From Microcaldota archaeon (lineage in GTDB: Archaea; Micrarchaeota; Micrarchaeia; Micrarchaeales; Micrarchaeaceae), in contig JAKACK010000007.1 of the NCBI GenBank assembly GCA_021821445.1, forward strand, positions 1 to 46,237: a stretch of 46,237 bases of DNA, given 5' to 3'. Each line of letters starts with the position of its first letter. Within the stretch, counting starts at the first letter, position 1. Shown here one piece after another: positions 42,951-46,237 of this stretch. The notes under the pieces are model-generated. The model ran no database searches and was not told the origin of the DNA. It saw only the letters and a list, made by a program, of their open reading frames with translations. The translations under genes were made by a program, and so were the position numbers.

Positions 42951-43457
42951 TTATTCTGATTTACAAAAATTATAATAATAAAGTATTCCCTGTATAGTTT
43001 TTCCATCTGTTATCTTATTCTCTTTTATCATCTTTAGCAATTGTTCAATACTTATCCATTTGGTTGTTATCATTTCATATTTTTCCAAATGCTTTTTCTC
43101 TTTCTTAAGATCCTCTGCAAGATAATAATAGTACATCTCTGTGCTTGTACCTGGAGCAGCGTATGCTTTAAAAATTAATTTCATCTTTCCTGCAATATAT
43201 CCTGTCTCTTCATGAAGCTCTTTCATAGCTAATTCCTTTAATGTTATCTTTCCTTCAAGAAATCCTGCAGGTAATTCATATATCCACTTATCAATATCAT
43301 GTCTATATTGATGTTCAGTTAATATTTTACCGTTGAGAATTGGTATTATCACTGCAACTGGCTTATGCACTACTGTAGAAGAAATATACTGAGTACCATT
43401 AGGCAGTTTTACTTTCTTTTCTATAACATCAAATTTTATGGAATGATATTTTCTCAT
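42951..43457 (-). CDS. NUDIX hydrolase (ADP-ribose pyrophosphatase-like)
   Basis: A 168-residue NUDIX protein. The box reads ELPAGFLEGKITLKELAMKELHEETGY; the catalytic REUxEE part is KELHEETGY (residues 79-87), with Lys for Arg. The first Glu of the canonical box (G-x5-E) is Ile. Following IFKAYAAPGTSTEMYYYYLAED is typical of ADP-ribose/NDP-sugar pyrophosphatases, whose substrate helps NAD salvage. First gene of the pair with the isochorismatase-like gene, probably co-transcribed. No signal peptide. Confidence 0.88.
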   Translation of the reverse strand: MRKYHSIKFDVIEKKVKLPNGTQYISSTVVHKPVAVIIPILNGKILTEHQYRHDIDKWIYELPAGFLEGKITLKELAMKELHEETGYIAGKMKLIFKAYAAPGTSTEMYYYYLAEDLKKEKKHLEKYEMITTKWISIEQLLKMIKENKITDGKTIQGILYYYNFCKSE

Positions 43458-43548
43458 TGAATCATTTTTATTTTAATATTGAATAATAATTATAATTACG
43501 TTAAGATATTTAAATATATAAAAAAAATTGATAATATTATGTGATCAT

Positions 43549-44739
43549 ATGGAAAAAAATAAAATTAATATTAATTACTTAACAGATTTAATTAAAAATA
43601 TGAATAATGATGTATACAAATATAATGAATTACAGACAGTTATAAAAGAGCGTGGAGTTTGGGTAATTAAGAAATTCGGAAAAGAGTTGAAGGATATAAG
43701 AATAAAAAATATGAAAGGATATGAAGGTTATCCAGCAGTACAAATATTAGCAGCAATAACACAGTTTTATCCAAAAGTCCAGAAAAAAATTATGAAAACA
43801 TTCAAAAAAGATTTATTAACTATAAAAAGTGATGAAGGTATAACTTTAGCACATACATTAGCAATGTATGGAAACTGTAAAATGCAAAAAACGCTTATAG
43901 AGATTTTTGGAAAAGATATAGCGACAATAGCAGATAATAACGGTATAACTTTAGCACATAATTTAGCAAGACATGGAAAGGGTGAAGTACCCCTAATAAT
44001 TTTAGATATGTTTAACTATGAGATAGGAACAATAAAGGATAATCACGGTTGGACATTAGCGCATTCATTATTGTTAAATAATTCATCTCCCGATGAAGTA
44101 TTTGAGAGAGTAATGAAACTATTTGGAAATAAAATTGAAACTATAAAGGATGACATGAATATAACTCTAGCCCATAAAATAGCAAGATATGGAAATGATG
44201 AAATACAGAATATGGTTTTGGACATACTTAGAAAAGGAACCGCAACAATAACAGATTATAATGGCCATAGTGTAGCAGATACATTGGCAAGACATGGAGA
44301 TTATTGGATGCATAAAAGATTACTAAAACTATTTGGAAAAGATATAGAAACTATAAAAGATAAATATGGCTGGACTTTAGCACACACATTAGCAAGATAT
44401 AGAAATACTGAAATACAGAATATAGTTTTAGATATGCTTGGAGATAAGATACTAACTATAAAAAGTTATAATCCTCTTAGAAGAATATTAAAAGCCCACA
44501 GAAAATATCCTGATACACACTTTATACTCAATAATGCTATATATAATGAGGTAAATGATGAAATTTCGGATATTGGTCTGGAAAAAGCTTGGGATAGTAT
44601 AGGGCAAAGAATTAAAATAAAGAGCTTTAGTGTAGCAGATATATTAAAACAGTGGGGAAATCTTCAAATAAAAGGAAGAGTTAACGAAATAATTAGAAAT
44701 TATAAAGAAAATCAAAATAAAAATTTAAGGGGAGGATAA
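43549..44739 (+). CDS. Protein of tandem 35-residue repeats, novel-looking
   Basis: About 396 residues. From about residue 93 there are at least six tandem units, mostly 35 residues (one is 37), each of the form x-T-L-A-H-x-L-A-R-x-G-x-x-E-I-Q-x-x-x-L-x-x-F-G-K-D-I-x-T-I-K-D-x-x-G. Examples start at ITLAHTLAMYG, ITLAHNLARHG, WTLAHSLLLNN, ITLAHKIARYG, HSVADTLARHG and WTLAHTLARYR. The layout suggests a helical solenoid akin to ankyrin, but the TLAH signature and length differ. Flanking regions are helical. Function unknown; solenoids usually bind proteins. I prefer ATG 43549 after GTGAT; a TTG at 43528 is open. It is followed by the lone IS605-type hairpin. Confidence 0.75.
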   Translation: MEKNKININYLTDLIKNMNNDVYKYNELQTVIKERGVWVIKKFGKELKDIRIKNMKGYEGYPAVQILAAITQFYPKVQKKIMKTFKKDLLTIKSDEGITLAHTLAMYGNCKMQKTLIEIFGKDIATIADNNGITLAHNLARHGKGEVPLIILDMFNYEIGTIKDNHGWTLAHSLLLNNSSPDEVFERVMKLFGNKIETIKDDMNITLAHKIARYGNDEIQNMVLDILRKGTATITDYNGHSVADTLARHGDYWMHKRLLKLFGKDIETIKDKYGWTLAHTLARYRNTEIQNIVLDMLGDKILTIKSYNPLRRILKAHRKYPDTHFILNNAIYNEVNDEISDIGLEKAWDSIGQRIKIKSFSVADILKQWGNLQIKGRVNEIIRNYKENQNKNLRGG

Positions 44740-44747
44740 TAATTTTT

Positions 44748-44769
44748 AACTTCGTGAATATGAAGTTCC
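44748..44769 (+). terminator. Hairpin after the repeat-protein gene
   Basis: AACTTC and GAAGTT are inverted arms around an 8-nt loop shortly after the stop of the repeat-protein gene, a possible transcript-end or processing hairpin. Confidence 0.3.
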
Positions 44770-44784
44770 AAACTAATTAACATA

Positions 44785-44819
44785 GCAGAAGCTCTGTTTG
44801 TAAGTACGGAGTAGTTTAC
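44785..44819 (+). mobile_element. Lone IS200/IS605-type right end / TnpB omega-RNA-like hairpin
   Basis: The sequence GCAGAAG, a stem CTCTGT/ACGGAG (44792-44797 with 44806-44811, one G-U pair), and then TAGTTTAC reproduces the form GAAG-CCCC-loop-GGGG-TAGTTCAC that ends many archaeal IS200/IS605/IS1341 elements and forms the scaffold of the TnpB guide RNA. No tnpA or tnpB is nearby on either strand, so this is either a remnant or a domesticated, transcribed RNA. It also overlaps the region upstream of the JAMM-like gene start. Confidence 0.5.
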
Positions 44820-44827
44820 TTATCGAA

Positions 44828-45793
44828 TTGCAAAAATATAAATATTACAAATATTACAAAAATAAATACATATTAAGTGATAATACGGAAAAGAGTACTA
44901 CAAAATATGAGACTAATAAATTGAATGATATGTTAAATTATTTATATAAAGGAAATGCGAGTGTAGAGGAGTTTCCAAATAAAACTGTGCTGTTACACTT
45001 TAGTAATTCAGAAAAGGTATCAATAAATAAGGAAGCTCTTTATGATCTCATCAGTGATATGAATAGAAATTATGAAACTGCTGGATACTTGTTAGGTAAA
45101 TATGATCCTCAAAGTAGGAAAACTCTATTTTCTATATATAAATCCAGTAGGTCAATAATAAATAGGTTTAAAGATTCTGTAGTGATAAATCCAAAATTTG
45201 AACAAGATGAGATATCTGGTTATAAACAAATGGGTTTTGATTCTATAATATTTTTGCATTCGCATCCTAATCGTTCTTTTAAGTATTTTTTAGAAGAAAA
45301 ATTAAATAAAATAGATAATAATACAGCTTTAACTTCCCATAAACTAGAAGCTATAAAAGCTGGTTTTAAAATAGCTTGTGATGGGGTATTATCTAAATAT
45401 TCCAATACATCCCCAAATTTAGATGCAAAAGAAATAAAGAAAATATTCAAACTTTCCCTGTTTGATGATTTAAATGCTGGCAAACCTGAAAGCTTTTCTA
45501 TCGTTGAAAATTATAATGAGAATAAAATTCATGAATTATCTAAATTTCTTCGTAAAGGACCTTCTCGTACAATTCAAAAATTAAAATGTGGATTAGATGA
45601 ATTATTCATGCCTATAGAAGCAAGATTTGGTTTAAAAATAAATAAAAAATTAAGTAATGAGGAAATTAATAAAATATTAAAAGATGTAAACGAATATTTA
45701 GATAATACAAAATTGTCATTTGTACATAACAGAATTCATATAGATTATGAATCAAATGAATTTGAAATCATAGTTGATCAGCCACCTAAGTAA
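44828..45793 (+). CDS. JAMM/MPN-like protein with altered metal site
   Basis: About 321 residues. Residues 55-190 fit the JAB/MPN fold: NYETAGYLLG (Glu83 in the metalloprotease Glu position), IIFLHSHPNRS (H-x-H at 144 and 146) and TSHKLEAIKAGFKIACDGVLS, which aligns with the P-S-x-x-D...AG...VGV end of JAMM proteins. The Asp of S-x-x-D is replaced (Leu173, followed by Glu174) and a roughly 15-residue insertion follows the HSHP, so activity is uncertain. Active JAMM enzymes cleave isopeptide or C-terminal tags of ubiquitin-like proteins, or short peptides in defence systems. The C-terminal 100 residues are an unknown helical domain. The start is a TTG without a clear SD; ATG 44930 is an alternative. 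Confidence 0.6.
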   Translation: MQKYKYYKYYKNKYILSDNTEKSTTKYETNKLNDMLNYLYKGNASVEEFPNKTVLLHFSNSEKVSINKEALYDLISDMNRNYETAGYLLGKYDPQSRKTLFSIYKSSRSIINRFKDSVVINPKFEQDEISGYKQMGFDSIIFLHSHPNRSFKYFLEEKLNKIDNNTALTSHKLEAIKAGFKIACDGVLSKYSNTSPNLDAKEIKKIFKLSLFDDLNAGKPESFSIVENYNENKIHELSKFLRKGPSRTIQKLKCGLDELFMPIEARFGLKINKKLSNEEINKILKDVNEYLDNTKLSFVHNRIHIDYESNEFEIIVDQPPK

Positions 45794-45956
45794 TTTACAG
45801 TTTTTTTGAAAATCAATACAACAAAATAATAAATGACACAATAAATATAATTCACGAAAAATCTAACCAAATCAAATAATTAATAAATTAATTAAATCAT
45901 TAAATTTTAATCCTTGCCAATAAATTTTTAATAAATTTTATAAAATCTAGAAATTA

Positions 45957-46060
45957 TAATATATTATTAGAATAACTAATATATTATTAGAATTTAGTAA
46001 TTTATTTTACATGAAAGGCCTAAAGTATAATAAAACTAAAATATAGTTAGAATAACTAAT
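45957..46060. repeat. Short direct and inverted repeats
   Basis: A 20-bp period tandem (TAATATATTATTAGAATAAC) occurs almost twice, and TTAG-AATAA-CTAA, itself a small inverted repeat, occurs twice about 80 bp apart. Sizes and AT content are compatible with a regulatory or replication-related patch or with slippage. Confidence 0.4.
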
Positions 46061-46104
46061 AATATTTAAGAATTATTATAATTTGAAATTTTGCAATTTA
46101 AATA

Positions 46105-46211
46105 TTTCATAATTATGAAAAATATAAAGATTGAATGGTTAAAATTTTGCATTCCATAAAAATGAAATAAAAATAGGATCAAACAAAAGTTGTTCTTTCA
46201 TAATTATGGAA
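46105..46211. repeat. Palindrome TTTCATAATTATGAAA and a near copy
   Basis: A perfect 16-bp palindrome at 46105-46120 and a one-insertion copy at 46196-46211. Each is preceded by an imperfect copy of AAATTTTGCA. Two similar sites about 90 bp apart could be operators of a gene beyond the right edge. Confidence 0.4.
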
Positions 46212-46237
46212 AATATGCCATTTTGGTTAAACAAGTA

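Follow-up and report, generated by a model that had tools for sequence, protein, structure and literature searches.

Judged from the sequence, positions 44751-44819 of the window (the whole stretch of DNA analysed, 46,237 nucleotides, which lies on contig C11 of an 839,642-base assembly that is 84.8% complete) are with good confidence best read as a 69-bp fusion of the left end (LE) and right end (RE) of an IS605 element from which tnpA, tnpB and the core are gone. We regard it as very probably a terminal-only derivative of an element that had carried both genes, located downstream of an ankyrin-repeat gene and directly preceded by TTTAAC; together with TTTAAC, it spans 44745-44819 (75 bases). 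An isolated TnpB-type hairpin is thereby explained as a stripped IS605 derivative. The features of the locus are as follows.

43528-44739, + strand: ankyrin-repeat ORF, upstream neighbour, outside the element; its stop lies 5 bp before TTTAAC
44745-44750, + strand: target site TTTAAC on the left-hand side of the element, presumably the TAM used by the parent TnpB
44751-44761, + strand: LE tip, with the LE match in register
44762-44769, + strand: GAAGTTCC, a short sequence common to LE and RE, at the fusion point (GAAGTCCC in both ends of G001 and G031)
44770-44819, + strand: RE, which would form the 3' part of the omega-RNA scaffold; identified by homology to RE copies and by model R1
44777-44800, + strand: alternative helix that competes with the RE hairpin; 44777-44782 with 44795-44800, 5 of 6 pairs in the window
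44792-44811, + strand: RE hairpin; stem 44792-44799 with 44804-44811, loop GTAA, 7 of 8 standard pairs in the window
44812-44819, + strand: RE terminus TAGTTTAC (TAGTTCAC in 8 of 9 other aligned copies; TAGTCCAC in G002)
44820-44839, + strand: flank, where the guide of a TnpB would lie
44828-45793, + strand: downstream neighbour ORF, outside the element; no Pfam family above the cut-off

The right end and its parent family

The initial annotation had placed a solo TnpB-type hairpin at 44778-44820. The hairpin proved real, with coordinates that were too short: RE homology starts at about 44762, upstream of the annotated start, and the motif GCAGAAG...TAGTTTAC occupies 44785-44819, which leaves 44820 as the first base of the flank. 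A covariance model (R1) of nine RE copies from related genomes, with the window excluded, scored the window RE at 49.9 bits (E 8.2e-12 in 101,704 bases). A 59-column profile made from eight RE copies of other genomes gave 38.2 bits at 44761, compared with -27.4 at the next best place in the window and a best score of -17.4 on 20 simulated windows. These scores rule out a chance hairpin, and the assignment to an IS200/IS605 right end of the TnpB scaffold type stands.

Over 44761-44819, the window shares 36-43 of 59 bases with each of the eight RE copies (the ninth, cut by a contig end, was left out of this count). Six of the eight come with more than 100 aa of tnpB coding sequence, G147b with 96 aa at a contig start, and G002 with none. 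The nine copies align over 68 columns without internal gaps. Relative to the family consensus, with column 23 set to T (the base in 4 of the 9 rows), the window copy has 14 substitutions, all GC to AT.

A pattern for the window hairpin, with three mismatches allowed, matched 6 of 301 genomes of the phylum, with one control match. These are the window's own genome, the same-genus G001 and G002, and then G026, G030 and G031. The match ends tnpB genes of one family in G001 and G031 and a more distant tnpB (26% identity) in G026; it stands alone in G002 and sits at a contig end in G030. Absence of similar IS605 ends would have counted against the initial annotation; related genomes have them, several ending tnpB genes. 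An RE pattern gave no match in viral contigs. A looser pattern found 34 sites in 148 genomes; the control gave 21, so most of the 34 may be chance hits.

The parent element in G001 is about 1.83 kb long and encodes a Y1_Tnp TnpA (PF01797, E 5e-37) and a TnpB (PF07282, E 2e-11). Relatives of this TnpB at E 1e-30 occur in 6 of 148 genomes, G001 included, and neither in the window's own genome nor in G002. A search of the own assembled genome for the Y1 transposase family PF01797 gave no match at E 0.001. At 84.8% completeness, a transposase or TnpB could be missing from the assembly. The own genome does hold tnpB genes (four intact and two fragments), and a tnpB there with a like 3' end had been proposed as a check; the RE of the four intact genes differs (...GTGGGAGGATGTCAC or ...ATGGGTGGGAGGATGTCAC), and these genes were rejected as the source of this end.

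In L005 and L006 (own genome, C3 and C15), tnpB is matched only in part and under the family cut-off, and both have an internal TGA; they are apparently remnants. L151 and L133 (G053) carry an identical element with an identical flank after the RE; the title of L151, Candidatus Marsarchaeota, conflicts with its placement among the window's relatives, perhaps through mislabelling or a mixed bin.

The probable left end and other miniature copies

TTTAAC precedes the left end in the full elements of G001, G031, G030 and G026 (none is clear in G053), and it also stands before the four other aligned miniature copies. At the left end of G001, G031 and G030, 11 bases separate TTTAAC from GAAGT or AAAGT, and in the window an equal distance separates it from GAAGTTCC. 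Positions 44745-44761 agree with these three left ends at 12, 11 and 11 of 17 bases, with equal spacing to GAAGT; sequence preceding the RE copies (five rows) agrees at only 3-5 of the 17 positions. A 12 of 17 match is reached by 7 of the 46,221 17-mers in the window, this one included, and by 8.5e-5 of simulated 17-mers; the match comprises only 17 bases in AT-rich DNA, at about 1e-4 for a fixed register. With GAAGTCCC in both ends of G001 and G031, deletion between the repeats would give exactly the arrangement found in the window.

The full IS605 elements of G001 (L137) and G031 (L139) share with the window the TTTAAC target, the LE tip, the RE and the TAGTTYAC terminus. They measure about 1.8 kb, and that of G001 has tnpA and tnpB, whereas the window has neither. 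The window element also lacks the LE hairpin of the full elements and keeps the RE hairpin. TTTAAC is found to its left, with no copy directly to its right; neither terminal inverted repeats nor a target duplication was found at its ends, so it is not a classical MITE.

A pattern scan of the genome contigs returned 10 stretches, 9 of them with TnpB coding sequence by tblastn (in L152, at a contig end, only 19 residues). L144 (G030) has no TnpB sequence and reads TTTAAC-LE tip-RE. It equals the window element in length (75 bases with TTTAAC), and 50 of the 75 bases are identical. When the G030 miniature was used as a BLAST query against 301 genomes, 13 matched, and a second full-length match was found at L159 in G007 (83%), a genome with no PF07282 match at E 0.001. 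The window's genome was not matched at E 0.01, and the link therefore comes from profile and layout. The fusions in L144 and L159 are better preserved than the window copy.

One could suppose instead that a full IS605 element was truncated here to about 58 bp of RE, with TTTAAC and the LE-like bases present by chance. Such a truncation does exist in the same genus (L138 2477-2550 in G002, an RE-only remnant without tnpB that lies directly behind a seemingly truncated hydrolase-like sequence), and the window, at 27% GC, has 28 copies of TTTAAC on its + strand. We nevertheless consider it unlikely, in view of the LE match at the exact spacing of full elements and of a total length equal to that of the G030 miniature. 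In L138, RE homology reaches about 16 bases beyond its upstream limit in the window, and TTTAAC is absent. The LE-RE fusion is thus our preferred reading, and under it the annotated "solo right end" needs amending: it is a remnant or non-autonomous element (69 bp is too short for a Y1 TnpA) and not a bare RE, since TTTAAC and the LE tip are present at 44745-44761.

The element is apparently single-copy in its own genome. BLAST of 44700-44900 gave only weak partial matches (best E 0.012), and an exact-end pattern found one site. The pattern TTTAAC...AGTAGTTYAC matched only the window among 301 genomes, which is not evidence of uniqueness because the pattern required an A that is absent from the G030 and G007 copies. 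A shorter form occurs twice in G050.

L161 1501-1550, - strand: 44-bp single-hairpin LE-RE fusion after TTTAAC
L171 1477-1526, + strand: 44-bp single-hairpin LE-RE fusion after TTTAAC

In this form, an arm of the LE hairpin passes straight into an arm of the RE, and the two fusions differ by one base. The pair has 52 bases in common and nothing more at E 1e-3 in pieces of 3.3 kb, and the flanks are unrelated. Likeness confined to 52 bases suggests that at least the 44-bp form moves or is moved, and L161 and L171 are possibly very small mobile IS605 derivatives. Searches for tnpB near the miniatures (tblastn with two TnpB queries) found nothing except a 30-residue tail in L159, which is the RE itself. 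Junctions differ between copies, being LE-type (GCGGGAAGT) in G007 and RE-type (GCGAGAAGT) in G030. This difference suggests separate deletions, with later mutation as another possibility. Forms of 44-69 bp are thus present in several genomes of one archaeal lineage, and their differing junctions suggest repeated formation.

Decay in place also occurs within the family. L170 (G013) holds a tnpB with its middle missing, in which residues 1-48 and 387-449 of the G001 TnpB adjoin, a possible intermediate of core loss. Short tnpB remnants of 31-56 aa are found in L169 and L160, and L138 is a further case.

We propose that the core was deleted between a short repeat in both ends (GCGRGAAGTCCC, as in G031). 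By one route, the resulting miniature would have been moved here in trans by a Y1 TnpA; by the other, the core would have been lost in place. Y1 transposases cut and paste single DNA strands, and a Y1 TnpA would make its single-strand cuts after TTTAAC and after TAGTTYAC. The present copy would be decaying and stranded in an assembled genome that yielded no transposase, and would not be a working guide RNA.

The locus and similar elements elsewhere

As the initial annotation had stated, there is no tnpB at the locus: the flanking ORFs are the ankyrin-repeat ORF and an ORF without a Pfam match. The latter, 321 aa long, carries an HSHP motif. Among 15 other genomes searched, 4 encode relatives of it (29-33% identity), and an RE match is absent from the four loci with homologues, which may not be orthologous. 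A search of 43400-46237 against Rfam at E up to 5 returned only a sub-threshold tmRNA match at 45415-45486, and no tRNA was detected in the window.

Across the family (11 sequences), the RE hairpin helix is paired in 94.3% of 88 cells (slid controls, 50-62.5%) and the alternative helix in 90.9% of 66 cells (slid controls, 30-50%). The hairpin is unremarkable in fold energy (-8.6 kcal/mol, z -0.89), as is the region 44700-44840 (z -1.01). Its significance therefore lies in its sequence, through the profile and covariance matches.

These energies bear on a second alternative, that the hairpin has been exapted as a 3' stem-loop of the ankyrin mRNA, serving stability or termination. The element begins a few bases behind the ankyrin stop codon, and there is a precedent on Borrelia plasmids, where free-standing IS605 stem-loops behind lipoprotein genes have been proposed to act in this way, according to the abstract of PMC2775950. 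As in the window, an IS605 stem-loop without transposase lies there beside the 3' end of a gene; the Borrelia stem-loops, however, are reported to be conserved in orthologues, and here there is one decayed copy. A fold energy no better than that of shuffles, the lack of a T-run directly after the hairpin and the failure to find an orthologous locus showing conservation make this quite improbable.

As a terminal-only fusion, the element fits a known kind, the terminal-only PATEs of Haloquadratum walsbyi, to which it adds modestly without being a new system. According to PMC3119063, these comprise 52-bp core-deleted forms of HqIRS46 and ISHwa23 that arose by repeat-mediated deletion, and the 52-bp form is suspected of still being mobile. 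Like the window element, they are described there as IS605 ends fused after core loss between direct repeats, with no ORF and no terminal inverted repeats; they lack a target duplication, too, and none was found at the ends of the window element. The fusion lies at 8-12 bp of common sequence here versus a near-terminal palindrome of 19-22 bp in Haloquadratum, and the 69-bp class differs further in lineage, in keeping about 58 bp of RE and in having lost the LE hairpin.

Measured against that kind, the window element is too short to code, has no terminal inverted repeats and bears a palindrome at its RE. A fusion of LE and RE such as deletion between short repeats would leave is present as well, in the window copy on the strength of 17 LE bases. 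As to mobility, the window copy is single in its genome, and the G050 44-bp form is found at two unrelated sites. If truly mobile, this natural single-hairpin form would show that very little DNA can suffice for a Y1 transposase. Among the papers listed by literature searches, no title or opening of an abstract describes miniature IS605 forms in Micrarchaeota.

The guide-RNA question

In the nine RE copies compared, of which some are closely related, a conserved block runs from about -180 to the end of the element. The copies carrying this 3' tnpB block are L131-L134, L136, L137, L139, L155 and L160; the G007 column, with its 1-base deletion, was left out of the conservation profile. Conservation at the three codon positions is 0.89, 0.90 and 0.93 from -160 to -120, where the third is as conserved as the others, and 0.89, 0.91 and 0.78 from -120 to -69, where it is lower. 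Such a pattern is, at least partly, what an RNA overlapping the 3' end of the gene would produce, and the roughly 180 conserved bases at the tnpB 3' end are likely the omega-RNA of this TnpB family. The hairpin and the alternative helix overlap and are mutually exclusive; both covary in the family.

The window matches only the last ~58 of these ~180 bases; about 120 are gone, and the full scaffold is thus absent. With its 14 substitutions, 12 of 14 pairs remain; placed at random, the same substitutions leave 10.9 on average (P 0.31). The sequence after TAGTTTAC had been suggested as the guide. We found no second site for it in own-genome BLAST reaching the first bases of the flank, and a search with its first 16 bases (up to two mismatches) in loci L001-L037 gave two hits, both the site itself. 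With ~58 of ~180 scaffold bases and no second site found for the guide, the element is unlikely to function as a guide RNA. Its scaffold resembles those of TldR and other domesticated TnpB guide RNAs, but here neither a protein partner nor a target was found. Not every solo TnpB right end, then, should be taken for a guide RNA.

It is at best a long shot that the 69-bp class forms a mobile, gene-less guide-scaffold unit that would parasitise TnpA and recruit TnpB in trans through the RE scaffold, with TnpB cutting the empty site and so restoring the miniature, and selection keeping such fusions forming and spreading. The initial annotation's domesticated guide RNA, its scaffold kept since a TnpB or TnpB-like protein elsewhere uses it with the flank as guide, could draw on the 12 retained pairs and on the miniature in G007, and is hardly credible given pair retention at the level of random placement, the missing scaffold bases, the lack of a guide match and the absence of a TnpB of this family (E 1e-30) from the assembled genome.

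Another repeat without genes, about 50 bp long and reading TCACCTAAnCTCGACAAG-GAAGCCCAC...GTGGGTAGTTTAC, occurs at L038, L039, L042, L044, L061, L172, L173, L174 and L175. No TnpB was found in these nine loci, four of them only 1 kb long, by tblastn with own and G001 TnpB at E 1e-3. Matching pairs of loci agree over 37-65 bases only.
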